DNA of 44,684 nt, from positions 1-44,684 of the IMG/VR virus record IMGVR_UViG_3300045257_000140, one strand, 5' to 3'. The position numbers and the translations under genes were made by a program. Shown piece after piece: positions 1-29,121 of this stretch. Each line of letters opens with the position of its first letter. The stretch's first letter is position 1. This DNA comes from a virus. Below the pieces are notes generated by a model, which saw nothing but the letters and a program-made list of their open reading frames with translations, was not told the DNA's origin and did not search any database.

Positions 1-342
1 GCCACCAAAAGGAACGAATCGTGTTTTCTCCGGATGCTTTTCTAGCAGCCCGGCGTCGTGCGTCAAGAGCATGTCCAGCTCCGGAAGTAGACTTTCGGCG
101 ATGAGGTAATTCTTCGGCCGGTACTCGCGGCATTCGAGTAGCCATCCGATCGTCACCTTGCTTTCGAGGACGGAGAGGACGTTGCTGTTGCACAGGAGAT
201 CGTCCGTGATGAGCGTCACGCCATGCCATGTCAGGCGGTTGCGGACATACTGAACCCGGCGAGCCGTCTTGCCATGAACGCTGGAGCCAGCGCCGCCTAG
301 ATTGTGGCTGAACGCCGAGTCAAATAAATTGCAGGTCATCAT
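1..342 (-). CDS. GT10-like fucosyltransferase, N-terminal part (runs off the window)
   Basis: The first 114 codons of a glycosyltransferase, cut by the window edge. The protein is nearly the same as the N-terminus of the complete GT10-like gene at 43303-44133, with changes concentrated in the first ~15 residues. Its ATG (342) overlaps the stop of the ColD-like gene in an ATGA arrangement, so the two are probably translationally coupled. If the contig is circular, the gene continues at 43794 and this is an allele of the same locus rather than a second gene. Confidence 0.75.
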   Translation of the reverse strand, partial: MMTCNLFDSAFSHNLGGAGSSVHGKTARRVQYVRNRLTWHGVTLITDDLLCNSNVLSVLESKVTIGWLLECREYRPKNYLIAESLLPELDMLLTHDAGLLEKHPEKTRFVPFGG

Positions 343-768
343 GGCCTGAACTCGCGCAAGACTTCCGGAAGCAGATCGATCTGCTCCGGCGTCATCTGCG
401 GATGGATGCCGACATAGCACGCATGGTCGTGCAGGAAATTCGCTCCCGTCAGCGGTCCGGCGATGCGATGCTTGATCTTCTGCAAGGCGGGCTGTCGCGC
501 CATGTTCCCGGCGACGAGCGGCCGATTCTCAATGCCGTGCGCTTCGAGGTGCGTCAGGAGCTTCGCCTTGAAGTCGCCGCGGCAGACCAGCGGGAAGGCG
601 AACGGGACGGCGCCCGGCTGCCACTTGATCGGCTGGAAATGGTCCTGGTTGAGCGCCGCAGTCCAGATCCGCGCGATGGACCGGCGCGCATGAACCCACG
701 GTTCGCGCTTGGCGAACTGCACCAGGCCGATAGCCGCGCGCACATCATCTCCGCGCAAGTTATAGCCG
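1..768. repeat. Left copy of imperfect terminal repeat
   Basis: This stretch is repeated at 43795-44684. The first ~120 bases match almost perfectly and the ColD-like part (339-768) aligns without gaps, with scattered mostly third-position differences. The right copy is longer by about 122 bases because a 42-codon ORF lies between the two shared genes. The arrangement fits a circularly permuted or circular genome whose two contig ends come from variants, or a true tandem duplication. Confidence 0.9.
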
Positions 769-1607
769 ACCTCGCCGAACAGGAAGCGCGGATCGATGGA
801 GGGATTCGCGGCCTCTAACTGCTTGCGCATTTCCGGCAACAGGTCACGACTCAAGCCGTGAGACCGGATAGAGCGTAGCCGCGAGGCATCCTCTGCATCT
901 CGGCAGAGCACCATGCCGCCTTCAATGGTCGTGATGTGGTGTGAGATATAGAAAGAGAAGGTGCCGAAGCGGCCGAAGGTGCCGACTTTCTGGCCGCCGA
1001 TGTCACTATCCAGGGCTTCGCAGCAATCCTCGAAGGCCCTATCCCGACAGGCGCCCCCCAGCGTTGTGGTAATGGTCCCCGGTGGGTCATCGATGAGCCT
1101 GCGGAAATTATGATTCCCCAAGAGATAAACCAGGACTACCCCACCCACGGGATGATCGATTCGCTGATATGCAACGCATAGCGTCTCCGGGTCGACATCG
1201 GCGATAACGGGAATGATCCCATGCTGCGCCATGGGCCATATGGTCGTCGGCCAGCCCACTGCTGGGACCATCAAATCGTCTCCCGCCTTCAGTCCTAGAC
1301 CGGCCATCGCCAGTAGATTCGCCGAGCTGCCGCTGTTGCAGAAGACGGCATCCGCAGAGCCATGCGCCTTGGCAAAGGCATCCTCGAATGCCCGCACGCG
1401 CCAGCCCTGCGTCACCGGCCCGCAGATGAGCGCCTCCAAGGCCGCAGCGATCTCCTCGACGCCTAGGGCCTCTGGGCTCACCAGCGGCAGGCGATATTTG
1501 CTCGGCTGGATGGGATAGGCATCACGGAGCCGCTGGGCGGCTTGCAGAAAATCGGGGTGGCCGATCAATCTGGCGCCCCGCCAAAAACGCGACCACACTT
1601 GAGGCAT
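339..1607 (-). CDS. ColD/RfbH-like PLP-dependent sugar 3-dehydratase (DegT/DnrJ family)
   Basis: A fold-type I PLP enzyme of the DegT/DnrJ/EryC1 family (422 aa from ATG 1607). It has the phosphate-binding stretch NSGSSANLL, the GDD..VPAVGW region and EDCCEAL. At the place where aminotransferases carry the Schiff-base lysine (SFHxxK) it reads SFYISHHITTIEGG, so lysine is replaced by histidine. That swap defines the 3-dehydratases ColD and RfbH/E1, which remove the C3 hydroxyl of a nucleotide-linked 4-keto-6-deoxy sugar. The C-terminal GIENRPLVAGN and GYNLRGDD motifs also fit ColD. The open frame extends to 1703; ATG 1607 overlaps the preceding small gene by 43 bp, and a TTG at 1568 (TTGA overlap) is an alternative start. 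Family is secure; the exact substrate (GDP- or CDP-sugar) is inferred. Confidence 0.85.
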   Translation of the reverse strand: MPQVWSRFWRGARLIGHPDFLQAAQRLRDAYPIQPSKYRLPLVSPEALGVEEIAAALEALICGPVTQGWRVRAFEDAFAKAHGSADAVFCNSGSSANLLAMAGLGLKAGDDLMVPAVGWPTTIWPMAQHGIIPVIADVDPETLCVAYQRIDHPVGGVVLVYLLGNHNFRRLIDDPPGTITTTLGGACRDRAFEDCCEALDSDIGGQKVGTFGRFGTFSFYISHHITTIEGGMVLCRDAEDASRLRSIRSHGLSRDLLPEMRKQLEAANPSIDPRFLFGEVGYNLRGDDVRAAIGLVQFAKREPWVHARRSIARIWTAALNQDHFQPIKWQPGAVPFAFPLVCRGDFKAKLLTHLEAHGIENRPLVAGNMARQPALQKIKHRIAGPLTGANFLHDHACYVGIHPQMTPEQIDLLPEVLREFRP

Positions 1608-1741
1608 CGGAAACAACCGTGGCGATCCAGCGCCCCGTCGAGGCCGACACTCAGCGAATCGCCGAAATAAATTCGCTCCGAATGCCGAGTATTCCACCAA
1701 CACTTGATCGTCTTCCAGGTTTGACGCCCGGCTCGTTTCAT
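1565..1741 (-). CDS. Small CxxCxxC-type protein (58 aa)
   Basis: Starts at ATG 1741, which overlaps the stop of the GT11 gene (ATGA) and has a clear GGGAGG upstream. The C-terminal segment CFRCLKCGRVF looks like a half zinc ribbon; the N-terminus is basic and aromatic. It overlaps the start of the ColD-like gene. No family recognised. It may be a small zinc protein of the many carried by this phage. Confidence 0.6.
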   Translation of the reverse strand: MKRAGRQTWKTIKCWWNTRHSERIYFGDSLSVGLDGALDRHGCFRCLKCGRVFGGAPD

Positions 1742-4644: not shown

Positions 4645-5849
4645 TGGAAATCCAACTCCCCGCCCTCTGGCCGCACCAAAAAGCCTTCGTGGACGATCCG
4701 GTTCAGTTCACTGTCTGCAAGAGCGCCACGAAGTGCGGAAAGACGACCGCTAGTTCCTGGTGGCTTGCGCGCGAGGCAATGCAGAAACCCGGCGGCCTCT
4801 TCTGGTGGGTGGGGCCTACGAACGACGTGGGCCTCATCGGATACAAGACGGTGCTCCACCTTCTTTCCGCGGCCATCGTCAAGAAGCAAGAACGGCCTTG
4901 GAAGTTCTACATCGAAAACGGCTCATGCATTGCTCTCAAGAGCGCGCAGGAACCGGAGCACCTGATGGGCGCTGGCGTGAATGGTGGCGTCCTCGATGAA
5001 GCCGGCCTGAAGGAATACGACAAGGCATGGCCGAACATCAAGACAACGATCTCAGCTACCCGCGCGCCCCTGAAGATCATCGGGAATCCCGGCGATGCCG
5101 GTCAGTTCATGGACCGCGCCGAGCGGTGGGGCCTCGATCCTTCGATGCCGGAGTGGTCTTTCCATCGCTGGAAGTTCCTCGATCGGCCCACGGCGACGGA
5201 GTCGGATCTCGATCAGGCGAAGCGCGAACTCGGCGAGGATTCGACGGAATATCGCCGCTACTATCTCGGCGAGACGATCCATGGCTCCGGTTCCTTCTTC
5301 CATAACCTCGATGCGGTTTCGACCGGAACGATCGAGGAGCCGAAGCCGGGCCGCCAGTATCTCCTCGGCGTTGATCCCTGTATCCGCTCTGACTTCTTCG
5401 TCGCTTCGGTCTGGGATGTGCAGGCACGTCGTCAGGTCTATTACTCGCGGCACAAGGGAACCCCGCCCGAGCAGCAGGAAGAGGAAACGAACCGGGTCGC
5501 GCTGCTCTATAACAATGCCGCGATCGTGATCGAAGTGAACGGTCCAGGCGGTCCGATCGCCCGCAGCCTCATGATCCGTGGCCGCGCGGTCTATCCCTTC
5601 GAGACCACCGGCAAGAGCAAGCCGGAATGCCTCTACGAGTACCGCTCCGACATCGCGCATGGCACCGTGACGCTGCTCGCTGATGAATACCAGAAGCAGG
5701 AGCACATCGCCTATCAGATGCGGACTACGCACATCGGCACCGTGAAGTTCGGATCTCCCCATGGCGGTTTCGATGACATGGTGATGGCGAACGCCATCGC
5801 GAATAATGGCCTCAAGCGCGCAGTCGTGCCGAGCGTGACATGGCTCTAG
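4644..5849 (+). CDS. terL: Terminase large subunit (packaging ATPase and nuclease)
   Basis: 401 aa. N-terminal ATPase with Walker A SATKCGKTT (residues 27-35, K33) and Walker B GGVLDEA (D118, E119). The C-terminal RNase H-like nuclease has acidic residues in LLGVDP (D244), IVIEVN (E297) and GGFDDM (D377/D378). It drives DNA into the prohead through the portal and cuts the concatemer. At ~400 aa it is at the short end for the family but has all motifs. Its stop overlaps the portal start by 10 bp. Confidence 0.93.
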   Translation: MEIQLPALWPHQKAFVDDPVQFTVCKSATKCGKTTASSWWLAREAMQKPGGLFWWVGPTNDVGLIGYKTVLHLLSAAIVKKQERPWKFYIENGSCIALKSAQEPEHLMGAGVNGGVLDEAGLKEYDKAWPNIKTTISATRAPLKIIGNPGDAGQFMDRAERWGLDPSMPEWSFHRWKFLDRPTATESDLDQAKRELGEDSTEYRRYYLGETIHGSGSFFHNLDAVSTGTIEEPKPGRQYLLGVDPCIRSDFFVASVWDVQARRQVYYSRHKGTPPEQQEEETNRVALLYNNAAIVIEVNGPGGPIARSLMIRGRAVYPFETTGKSKPECLYEYRSDIAHGTVTLLADEYQKQEHIAYQMRTTHIGTVKFGSPHGGFDDMVMANAIANNGLKRAVVPSVTWL

Positions 5850-7954
5850 GCGAGCGTCTCCGTGCCGCGCTTCACGCCATGACCGCCCCGGTGGCGCAGA
5901 AGAGCGCCGGCAGTCAGGCCGCCTGGAACTCCATCTTCACGACTGGGATGGATCGCTTCTTCGGCGCGAATGCACTTGTGCAACCCTATGCGCAGCATCC
6001 GACCGTCCATGCCGCCGTCTCGGCCATAGCAACCGCTATCTCGGCCTTGCCGCTGGAGATGTTCACCGATTCGCCCACGGAAAACGAGGACGCCGAAGTT
6101 CGGGTTTCTGACTCGATTGTCGGTGATCTCCTTGAGAACCCCGGACCCGACATGGACGGTCCGCAACTCATTCAGGGAACTGTTACCTTCATGCAGTTGT
6201 ATGGAGAGGCGTTCTGGTTCATGGACGGATTCGCCCGCCGCGAGCCAAAGGGGCCGCAGTTCCCGACCAGCCTGACGCTGTGGAATCCACTCCAGGTCAA
6301 GGCCGTGACGAAGGGCGGTGCTCTCATGGCCTGGGAATTTCAGGACGGGATGCAGGGAGATGTGTTCCGCGCCTCCCTTGAGCAGGTCATCCAGTTCAAG
6401 TTCTTCAATCCCTATGACACGGTACGCGGCCTGCCGCCCTTGGGTGCGGCGAAGATCGCGGCGACGGGCGGCTATAAGGCCCTTCTCTATCAGGATGCCT
6501 TCTTCGATAATAATGCCGTGCCCTATGGGCTCCTCACACCGAAGGAAGGATCGATCATTCAGCCGGAGGCCATGGTTCGCCTTCGCGATGAATTGGAAGC
6601 CCGCCAGATGGGCGCGCCGAAGCATGGCCGGATCGGTGCTTTGAACACGAACGTTGACTTCAAGGAACTCGGGATGAGCCACAAGGACATGGACTTCCCG
6701 ATCTGGCTCGATTCGGCGACAGCCTTCATCCTGATGGTTTTCAAGGTTCCGCCCTCTGTAGCAGGGATTCAGAAGGACGCGAACTATAACGAATCGATCC
6801 ACCAGAGCAAGCGATTCTGGTACAACCATCTCCCGCTCGTTCACTATCTCGAACGCCGCATCGAGAAACGTCTCTGTGAGCAGTTCGGCATCCCCGAAGA
6901 GCCCTATTTCCAGACCGAGATGATTAAGGAATTGACCGAGGATCAGGAAGCCCTCGCCCGCCGCGCCCGAGACTACTGGAATATGTGTGTTCCGTTCGCC
7001 GAGATTAATCGACGGTTCCAGCTCGGCTTCAATGTGACTGGCCTGTCGGCGAAAACCCCATGGGTTCCATTCAGCATGGTTAATGCGGACGACCAGGCAG
7101 AGGCCATTCCATCGCGCGAGCAGGTTAGCGGGCAACCAGGGCAGGGCGATCAGAACAAGCCAGGCGATCAGCCAACGCAGACCGCTCCCGGTGCCGGCAA
7201 GGCCATGCAGACCAGCCGCGAATTGGTGCGCAAGATTTCCTGGCGCACCCTCATCTCGAAGGTGCGTGACGAGGAAGAGGCTTATGCGCGTGCCGTGCGA
7301 TCGCACTTCTTTGCGCTGAAGAATGAAACGCTCATGCACTTGCGCGCCCGCAAGGGGCTGAAGTTGGCCGGTGATGTCAATGTCGAGGCCGCCATGTTCG
7401 ATGAGGACAAGGCCGCCAAGGACATCGAGAAGAAGACTGAGCCGCTCTACAAATCGGCCATCGAAAAGGGCGCCGAGACGGTCATCGGCGAGCTTCAACT
7501 GACGATCGACTTCGATTTCCTCTCTCCGGGAGTCGTCAAATTCCTGCACGAAAAGATGTTCGAGATCGCCGATCTTGTTGATGGGCCGCTTCGGGATGCG
7601 CTGCGCTATCAACTTGAGGAAGGCGTGCGCTTGGGTGAGTCGGTGGACAAGATAGCGGCGCGTGTGGCTGAAGTGTTCGACACGCAGCGATTCCGCGCCT
7701 ATCGCATCGCGCGAACGGAGGTCGCCGAGTCGTTCAACAGCGGCCGATTCGCCACCATGAAGGAGGCCGGCGTCGAGCGCATCGAGTGGTTGTCGGCTAG
7801 GGATGATCGGGTGCGCGATTCCCATGAAGAGGTCGATGGAGAGGTCATCGTCCTAGGCGACAAGTTTAGCAATGGGCTGCTCTATCCGCTCGACCCGGCT
7901 GGCCCGCCGGAGGAGATCGTTAACTGCCGCTGCGTCAGCGTTCCGGTGGCCTAG
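5840..7954 (+). CDS. Portal protein fused to a MuF-type head morphogenesis domain
   Basis: 704 aa. Residues ~1-420 are an HK97-type portal (for example LVQPYAQHPTVHAAVSAIA, MQLYGEAFWF, VPPSVAGIQ, and NYNESIHQSKRFWYNHL near 330-350), the dodecameric DNA gate. A Gln/Gly/Pro-rich linker (~425-450) follows. The last ~250 residues end in a MuF (SPP1 gp7/Mu F-like) domain with IARTEVAESFNSGR, WLSARDDRVRDSHEEVDGE and the terminal PPEEIVNCRC. Portal and MuF proteins are separate in most phages; here a single uninterrupted frame joins them. Confidence 0.9.
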   Translation: MALGERLRAALHAMTAPVAQKSAGSQAAWNSIFTTGMDRFFGANALVQPYAQHPTVHAAVSAIATAISALPLEMFTDSPTENEDAEVRVSDSIVGDLLENPGPDMDGPQLIQGTVTFMQLYGEAFWFMDGFARREPKGPQFPTSLTLWNPLQVKAVTKGGALMAWEFQDGMQGDVFRASLEQVIQFKFFNPYDTVRGLPPLGAAKIAATGGYKALLYQDAFFDNNAVPYGLLTPKEGSIIQPEAMVRLRDELEARQMGAPKHGRIGALNTNVDFKELGMSHKDMDFPIWLDSATAFILMVFKVPPSVAGIQKDANYNESIHQSKRFWYNHLPLVHYLERRIEKRLCEQFGIPEEPYFQTEMIKELTEDQEALARRARDYWNMCVPFAEINRRFQLGFNVTGLSAKTPWVPFSMVNADDQAEAIPSREQVSGQPGQGDQNKPGDQPTQTAPGAGKAMQTSRELVRKISWRTLISKVRDEEEAYARAVRSHFFALKNETLMHLRARKGLKLAGDVNVEAAMFDEDKAAKDIEKKTEPLYKSAIEKGAETVIGELQLTIDFDFLSPGVVKFLHEKMFEIADLVDGPLRDALRYQLEEGVRLGESVDKIAARVAEVFDTQRFRAYRIARTEVAESFNSGRFATMKEAGVERIEWLSARDDRVRDSHEEVDGEVIVLGDKFSNGLLYPLDPAGPPEEIVNCRCVSVPVA

Positions 7955-27474: not shown

Positions 27475-27837
27475 TCACGCCGATTCAATCGCCCCGACCA
27501 TCACTTCGGTTCTGGCGGGCTTCTCGAATCTCTTGGTTGCGACGATGCTCAGGACCTGAGAGTCGTCGTTCCATGCCAGCCCGTTCAACGCATCCATCAC
27601 GAGCTTGACCATATTATCGAGGTCCTTGCGGCGTCTGGTGCCAACGCAAAAGAGCATCCCGATCTGGACCGGTTCGGCGAGCGGCTTCCCGTTGGCTCCG
27701 GCCGCCTCGCGATAGGCCCAGCCGATGGCCTTCTCGGCCTGGCGTGTTTTGGCATCGGTGTATGGGATGCCTTTCCGCAGCATGCGCGGCCTGCCCTTGC
27801 AGACAGGCTCCCCTGGCAGCGCGAACCGGACGCTCAT
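27475..27837 (-). CDS. rusA: RusA-family Holliday junction resolvase
   Basis: 120 aa from ATG 27837 after GGGGGAG. Canonical RusA sequence: LPGEPVCKGRPRMLRKG, YTDAKTRQAEKAI, and the catalytic acidic cluster RRKDLDNMVKLVMDALNG then WNDDSQV. It resolves branched replication and recombination intermediates before packaging. It is the last gene of the leftward operon. Confidence 0.92.
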   Translation of the reverse strand: MSVRFALPGEPVCKGRPRMLRKGIPYTDAKTRQAEKAIGWAYREAAGANGKPLAEPVQIGMLFCVGTRRRKDLDNMVKLVMDALNGLAWNDDSQVLSIVATKRFEKPARTEVMVGAIESA

Positions 27838-28013
27838 CGAAAGAGCTCCCCCTGCTCCTTCGGAGCCGGGCACTCCGCTCCCTTGTGGTAGAACGGGCAG
27901 CCGGGATGCTGGTGCCAGTTGCCGTCCTTGCGCTCGTGCCAGTCCTTGCCGGCGCCCTCGAAGATATCGTCGGTGCTGGCCTTCGGGCAGGGGCAATCGC
28001 AGGTGCCGCTCAT
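27834..28013 (-). CDS. Small Cys/His-rich protein (59 aa)
   Basis: Found by reading the minus strand from ATG 28013 (GGTGGG upstream); its stop overlaps rusA (ATGA). It begins MSGTCDCPCPKAS and continues with WHQHPGCPFYHKG and ECPAP, so seven or eight metal-binding type residues. Probably a small zinc protein; unknown role. Confidence 0.55.
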   Translation of the reverse strand: MSGTCDCPCPKASTDDIFEGAGKDWHERKDGNWHQHPGCPFYHKGAECPAPKEQGELFR

Positions 28014-28051
28014 CCCACCATCCCCACGGCGCAGAGAGCGAGACGGATCAT
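28010..28051 (-). CDS. 13-codon micro-ORF bridging two genes
   Basis: ATG 28051 overlaps the stop of the methyltransferase gene (ATGA) and its own stop overlaps the next start (ATGA). It encodes only MIRLALCAVGMVG. It may exist to carry ribosomes to the next gene rather than make a product. Confidence 0.25.
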   Translation of the reverse strand: MIRLALCAVGMVG

Positions 28052-29121
28052 GCGGTGGCCTCCATGAATGCCCTTACGAACTCCGCCGCGACTTGCGGAA
28101 CAATGGCATTGCCGTAACCGCGCAGTCGTCCCACTCTGGCGGGAACCCCATGAGCCAGCGGGAATGTGCCGGATTCAACGCGCCTCTGCTTCCCGTCGGC
28201 GCAAGGAAGCAGGTCGCTTGGTTGCCAAGCGTCAGGCCAAATCCGTTCCCGTTGTTGTGGCGCGCCTTGCACTCCGCTTGGCGCTCTTTGATTCGCTCGG
28301 CGCTCATCGTTCGCATCTCGGCTGCGCTCGGTGTCGCCCATCCGGCCACCGTTTGCAAGTTCTCCCCGCCCTCGCCGCGCGTCCCAGTTCCGGTCACATT
28401 CGATGCCTTCGGAGAGGGCCAACCCATTGGGAAGTTCCCGTGACTGTCTGGCTCGCCCCACTTGTTCGCAAGGGGGTTCGGCCAGCCGCTCAACTGCGCC
28501 GCTGCCGCCAGCGTCAATCCCGCCCCGTTCCCATTCTTCCATTTCGCCTTCGCTCTGTCGCGCCGCGCTTGGTTCGACTCCGGCGATTGCCCGTCGTTGA
28601 TCTCCGTTGCGCTTGGCGTCGGCCACCCAGTAGAGCCGCTGCCTGATGTGCGGCGCCCCGACGCCCGCAACGCACAGATCGGCGGCCCCGACGGCATATC
28701 CCAATGCTTCCAGGTCAGCGCATATTCCGGCGAGCCATTCACGTCCAGCCTTGCTCGCAACCTGCTCTCCAAAGATCGTTGGAGGTCGGCACTCGCTGAT
28801 GAGCCTGAGCCACTCGGGCCAGAGGTGGCGGGCGTCGGCGGTTCCGAGGCGCTTCCCGGCTGCGCTGAACGGCTGGCAGGGGCAAGAGCCGGTCCAAACG
28901 GGTCGGTCTGCTGGCCACCCGGCGAGCGCGAGCGCATACGGCCATCCTCCGATCCCGGCGAAGAAGTGCGAGCGGGGCGAACAGTCATCGGGTTGCACCT
29001 CGATAATGGAGCGGGCATCAACGTCGCCGGATTCGATCAGCTCGCGGGCGATCAGTTCGCGCAGCCATGCGGCAGTCTTTGGATCGTTCTCATTGTAGAG
29101 AGCGAGACGGAGGCGGGTCAT
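28048..29121 (-). CDS. DNA cytosine-5 methyltransferase
   Basis: 357 aa from ATG 29121 (ATGA overlap upstream). C5-methyltransferase motifs: FFAGIGGWPYAL (motif I, ~54), GSCPCQPFSAAG with the catalytic Cys (motif IV), FGEQVAS (motif VI), HIRQRLYWVADA (motif VIII) and LRGYGNAIVPQVAAEFV (motif X). The ~120-residue variable region between motifs VIII and X is low-complexity and would recognise the target. The likely job is protection against host restriction or control of phage genes. A second open frame lies inside it (28074-29021). Confidence 0.92.
   Translation of the reverse strand: MTRLRLALYNENDPKTAAWLRELIARELIESGDVDARSIIEVQPDDCSPRSHFFAGIGGWPYALALAGWPADRPVWTGSCPCQPFSAAGKRLGTADARHLWPEWLRLISECRPPTIFGEQVASKAGREWLAGICADLEALGYAVGAADLCVAGVGAPHIRQRLYWVADAKRNGDQRRAIAGVEPSAARQSEGEMEEWERGGIDAGGSGAVERLAEPPCEQVGRARQSRELPNGLALSEGIECDRNWDARRGRGELANGGRMGDTERSRDANDERRANQRAPSGVQGAPQQRERIWPDAWQPSDLLPCADGKQRRVESGTFPLAHGVPARVGRLRGYGNAIVPQVAAEFVRAFMEATA
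28074..29021 (-). other. Possible dual-coding frame inside the methyltransferase gene (315 codons)
   Basis: This minus-strand frame is open for 315 codons. It contains ATSGPSGSGSSASADLQ, GSPEYALTWKHWDMPSGPP, ICALRASGRRTSGSG, four GW[PA][TNS]P repeats and the end LNPAHSRWLMGFPPEWDDC. I recognise these motifs from proteins annotated in many phages as methyltransferase-like. GC-rich DNA opens spurious frames easily, so it is listed as a candidate only. It has no clear ribosome-binding site of its own. Confidence 0.35.

Follow-up and report, generated by a model that had tools for sequence, protein, structure and literature searches.

In M.HhaI-type enzymes, the target recognition region (TRD) and motif IX are parts of the small domain. 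In M.EcoHK31I, the small gene, which encodes a beta polypeptide of about 176 aa, lies within the large gene in a different frame. M.EcoHK31I (YGGCCR) is a two-polypeptide DNA cytosine-5 (C5) methyltransferase in which motif IX is found on the small polypeptide (PMC3404938). Its large subunit contains motifs I-VIII and X and the predicted TRD (PMC3404938). M.AquI (CYCGRG) is a C5 methyltransferase that is naturally split into two chains (PMC3404938). No paper on dual coding in the phage family described here was found in the open-access literature searched. A different case is the ShiLan element, in which an HNH gene lies out of frame within a phage methylase (PMC11855218).

The window analysed here is a complete IMG/VR virus record of 44,684 bases. 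At the methyltransferase locus, two frames are present on the same (minus) strand, as had been predicted. The alpha frame (frame 1, 28048-29121, minus strand) starts with ATG and encodes an m5C methyltransferase catalytic polypeptide of 357 aa. The beta frame (frame 2, 28074-28988, minus strand) is nested within it, at +1 relative to alpha, and encodes 304 aa. The motif patterns quoted in the original prediction, TWKHWDMPSGPP..CALRAS, the GW-type pattern (GWPTP, GWPNP, GWPSP and GWATP) and LNPAHSRWLMGFPPEWD, were all found in frame 2. Codon position 2 of frame 2 is position 3 of frame 1, so nearly all silent changes in frame 1 alter frame 2. A RusA-like Holliday junction resolvase (PHROG_140) is encoded directly downstream of the methyltransferase (27475-27996, minus strand). 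Among the scanned ORFs, none was identified as a restriction enzyme gene. Elsewhere in the window, an aminotransferase-like protein (PHROG_3139, E=8e-48) is encoded near the end of the record (339-1703, minus strand). A 659-aa ORF (5846-7825, minus strand) is found opposite the portal protein gene (5840-7954, plus strand), in antisense orientation, and is probably a chance ORF of GC-rich DNA.

Alpha matched PHROG_363 (E=7e-72) and, over residues 77-171 only, PF00145 (56 bits, cut-off 22). The PF00145-type catalytic motifs were located on the minus strand: motif I (FFAGIGG, 28945-28965), motif IV (SCPCQPFS, with the PCQ triplet and the catalytic Cys, 28864-28887), motif VI (GEQVAS, 28753-28770, where EQV replaces the usual ENV) and motif VIII (HIRQRLYW, 28627-28650). 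They are conserved in A1/A5. Motif X (GYGNAIVPQ, 28093-28119, minus strand) overlaps the beta C-terminus. The m5C-methyltransferase motifs of alpha are I-VIII and X, and this catalytic chain has neither motif IX nor a conserved TRD. Structures were predicted using AlphaFold2 with an alignment built without the loci from annotated records. The alpha model has a confident catalytic fold, with M.HhaI as best PDB match (Foldseek, E=3e-9) and a C-terminal helix carrying motif X. Residues 182-296 (28234-28578, minus strand) are predicted to be disordered (pLDDT 34-48) and the remainder folds.

Homologues were gathered from viral contigs and genome contigs with frame 1 as the sole query, which yielded 170 full-length sequences. 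Stop codons were compared with a null obtained by shuffling synonymous codons gene by gene, so that both the frame 1 protein and its codon usage are preserved. In these homologues, 43 stops were observed in frame +1 for 545.5 expected (a 12.7-fold depletion), and this frame was fully open in 136 of them (6.5 expected). No effect was seen in the control frame +2 (1946 stops, 1868.6 expected). When one sequence was kept per 85%-identity cluster (n=139), 39 stops remained in frame +1 for 457.8 expected. The depletion held in every GC tercile, and nothing comparable was found in 351 flanking ORFs (2172 frame +1 stops, 2235 expected). In 164 of 167 homologues, no stop interrupts beta between codon 48 and motif IX; the other three have one ahead of motif IX. 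The second frame is a real coding sequence.

An untranslated frame 2, conserved as a by-product of the frame 1 protein and of GC-rich codons, would make the annotated frame 2 proteins artefacts. Long alternative ORFs are indeed common in GC-rich genes, and the GC-rich gene of the record itself, with no frame 2 stop for 1.5 expected, is mildly unusual and has a small statistical weight alone. Such a by-product is nevertheless extremely improbable, given a depletion of this size at fixed protein and codon usage, its absence from the flanking ORFs and a distant homologue in the AT-richer phage Lily (locus 43% GC) that stays open. The start signals and the conservation of the TRD, given below, also argue against it. 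In two homologues (L035 and L057), one indel shifts both frames together; in L035, the result is a beta N-terminus and TRD that continue into alpha motif X. A sequencing error, a pseudogene or a real rearrangement are possible alternatives for these two loci.

Frame 2 stops occurred at the expected rate up to about residue 46 of frame 1 and were nearly absent beyond (1 at residue 47 for 27.4 expected, 0 at residue 57 for 15.3). Frame 2 ATG codons were in excess at residue 41 (86, 46.5 expected) and at residue 45 (55, 30.1 expected). A Shine-Dalgarno (SD) match of at least 5 nt preceded the residue-41 ATG in 36 cases for 4.7 expected, and one of at least 4 nt preceded the residue-45 ATG in 29 cases for 17.2 expected. 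This enrichment at the beta starts is a further point against an untranslated frame. Residue 35 was rejected as a universal beta start: it is an ATG in only 77 of 170 homologues, and the stop profile and SD matches favour residues 41 and 45. In the record, the residue-45 ATG is at 28988 and is preceded by the Shine-Dalgarno-like GAGGTG (28996-29001, minus strand) with a 7-nt spacer. Frame 2 had been predicted to extend to 29021. The open frame does reach from an upstream TTG at 29021 down to the stop at 28074 (28074-28076), while the start, judged from these sequence signals, is likely the ATG at 28988 and not this TTG.

Selection was analysed on pairwise ungapped nucleotide blocks, in which isolated differences were sorted, frame by frame, into silent and non-silent. 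These blocks were located by nucleotide similarity and hence are not biased toward either frame. The OLGenie-like count used two estimators (NN/NS and SN/SS, given in this order below), with a transition weight fixed at 2 and no correction for saturation. Intervals were obtained by bootstrap over loci and are too narrow because the sequences are related. Ahead of the overlap (codons <38), frame 2 dN/dS was 2.42 and 1.47, so this frame is unconstrained there. It was 0.69 and 0.72 for codons 75-105, 0.18 and 0.61 for codons 105-135, and 0.18-0.30 over motifs VI-VIII, where frame 2 is constrained. The values were 0.14 and 0.30 in the first 12 codons past motif VIII, 0.17 and 0.17 in the TRD middle (a strong constraint) and 0.16 and 0.47 under motif X (x-14 to +8). 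Frame 1 was strongly constrained in the catalytic region (0.06-0.15, first estimator), gave 0.09 and 0.26 at motif X and was neutral in the TRD middle (1.21 and 1.27), which is the middle of the stretch predicted to be disordered in alpha. Both frames are thus constrained over the catalytic motifs and motif X. Amino-acid identity in the TRD middle was 71% for frame 2, 44% for frame 1 and 47% for frame 3. Together with the dN/dS values, this indicates that frame 2 carries the protein selection in that region, and a frame 2 better conserved than frame 1 is not what an untranslated frame would give. The original prediction had left a choice between true dual coding and systematic mis-annotation. 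The former is borne out by the stop depletion and by purifying selection on the second frame (dN/dS of 0.14-0.30 for the recognition region and of 0.16-0.47 under motif X, compared with 2.4 and 1.5 upstream of the overlap).

Selection alternates between the frames along the gene in the sequence expected of a single-chain enzyme, a pattern that programmed ribosomal frameshifting would also produce: one chain would be catalytic in frame 1, pass by +1 into frame 2 for recognition and perhaps come back for motif X. Two shifts would be required, and frame 1 stays open across the entire TRD. The constraint on frame 2 extends to either side of the TRD (over motifs VI-VIII and under motif X) and beta has its own ATG with an enriched SD, which makes frameshifting less likely. 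We consider it quite unlikely.

Motif IX was defined as the pattern W/E-L-M-G-F/Y/L-P at no more than 45 codons from motif X. This pattern was found in frame 2 of 151 of the 168 homologues and in frames 1 and 3 of none (0/168); most homologues outside the 151 have near-variants, e.g. WLMALP. Alpha is therefore without motif IX and beta has a motif IX-like block. The main frame had been credited with all cytosine-5 motifs, which is contradicted by this count and by the short PF00145 match; this mistake conceals why the second frame probably exists. In the record, LNPAHSRWLMGFPPEW (28131-28178, minus strand) was read as motif IX on account of the pattern, of its position just ahead of motif X and of single-frame relatives. 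In these relatives, Gordonia phage JKSyngboy and Mycobacterium phage Chanagan, the motif IX-like block and motif X are in one frame. Their frame +1 yet holds LPTP-type modules over part of the TRD, and they are possible intermediates between the single-chain and two-frame forms. In Synechococcus phage Yong-M2-251 and Pseudomonas phage Marin, motif IX is in frame +1 and motif X in frame 1. Residues 121-270 of beta (28179-28628, minus strand) consist of GWPTP-type repeated modules, a variable part of the protein, and are the presumed target recognition region.

The beta protein of the record matched PHROG_1008 (E=9e-29) and also PHROG_31772, both named DNA methyltransferase. In a profile test, these two families were matched by all the beta proteins tested (116/116). 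No matching model was found for beta in Pfam and NCBIfam, and a beta profile had no match in PDB sequences up to E=10. The AlphaFold2 model of beta alone is weak (pLDDT 64, pTM 0.32); it shows a helix-hairpin over residues 63-111 and helical segments at the motif IX block. Searched against the PDB, this weak model gave no match at E <= 0.001 and no solved methyltransferase domain was matched; its best VIA-align Z of 2.9 is not meaningful. With a model of this quality, the result points neither to a new fold nor to a missing TRD. Since no fold or family of tested function was found for beta, frame 2 could encode a separate protein with its own job (e.g. anti-restriction or regulatory) inside a methyltransferase gene. 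This is unlikely in view of the motif IX-like block that beta has and alpha lacks, of a frame 1 that is neutral exactly where the TRD is expected, of the relatives in which motifs IX and X share one frame, and of the M.EcoHK31I precedent.

Neither frame is complete alone, and alpha and beta together hold every C5 methyltransferase motif. A single DNA cytosine-5 methyltransferase made of two polypeptides, similar in kind to M.EcoHK31I and with a nested beta subunit, is very probably encoded at this locus. Beta expression, subunit assembly, methylation activity, specificity and the biological role are inferred. Alpha would supply the catalytic domain (motifs I-VIII) and close it with motif X. 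Its central 115 residues or so would form a disordered linker that stays open chiefly because translation has to pass through it on the way to motif X. Beta would start independently inside alpha and supply the presumed target recognition region and motif IX. By analogy with the alpha and beta chains of M.EcoHK31I, the two polypeptides may assemble into a site-specific methyltransferase, which would most likely shield phage DNA from host restriction. If so, either annotated ORF cloned alone should yield an inactive enzyme. The two frames answer for separate domains of one presumed enzyme, so that the locus allows the evolution of overlapping genes to be followed region by region. It is an unusually clear same-strand dual-coding gene and occurs in contigs from many bacterial phyla.

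Mis-annotation, the other branch of the original prediction, also holds: public records name alpha only, both frames or beta only, and the annotated frame 2 homologues do overlap a methyltransferase frame. Alpha alone is annotated in N15, Gungnir39 and RcCWillis. The records of phages K1H, fTaEco03 and Xanthomonas PhiXhv-5 carry annotations for both frames; in K1H, an Mte8-like ORF is nested at +1 within a C-specific methylase. In Mycobacterium phage Bipolar (NC_028823), the annotated DNA methyltransferase (CDS 1433-1984) is a beta-type frame, and the catalytic alpha frame (GGFPCQPFS..., FGNAVVPQ) lies unannotated in another frame of the same DNA. The large phage protein family whose members are recorded as distinct or spurious genes probably corresponds to the missing enzyme subunit. 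This would give a role to common orphan phage proteins (PHROG_1008, 'Mte8-like') and would account for the many annotated phage C5 methyltransferases that seem to be without recognition domain and motif IX. It is reasonably probable that obligate alpha/beta pairs make up very many of the C5 methyltransferases of phages and prophages, with the specificity domain encoded solely at +1 and the catalytic frame drifting neutrally through it. In that case, specificity could change through the exchange of a beta module while the catalytic chain is little affected, and public annotation, in which these genes are modelled as single-chain, would be wrong for a whole class.

Compared with proteins already in the records, the Mte8-like, PHROG_1008 and PHROG_31772 proteins correspond to the beta frame; they are annotated as methyltransferases and have no catalytic motifs. 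In Paenibacillus phage Lily, g62/g63 is a distant alpha with a nested +1 ORF that has LPTP and MGFP motifs and is annotated 'g62 internal gene'. This locus differs from that of the record in being AT-richer (43% GC) and shorter, with only about 43% identity over 98 aa. As in M.AquI, a C5 methyltransferase is divided between two chains. The split of M.AquI is sequential, with motifs I-VIII and part of the variable region followed by the rest and motifs IX-X, whereas here it is interleaved: motif X belongs to alpha, and the overlap of the frames is almost complete. With M.EcoHK31I the locus shares a motif IX placed in the small polypeptide, the other motifs being in the large one, and a small-subunit gene contained in the large one in a different frame. 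It differs in that beta is longer (304 aa, against about 176 aa) and in the position of the recognition region, which is predicted in the large subunit of M.EcoHK31I and which selection and AlphaFold2 seem to place in beta here.
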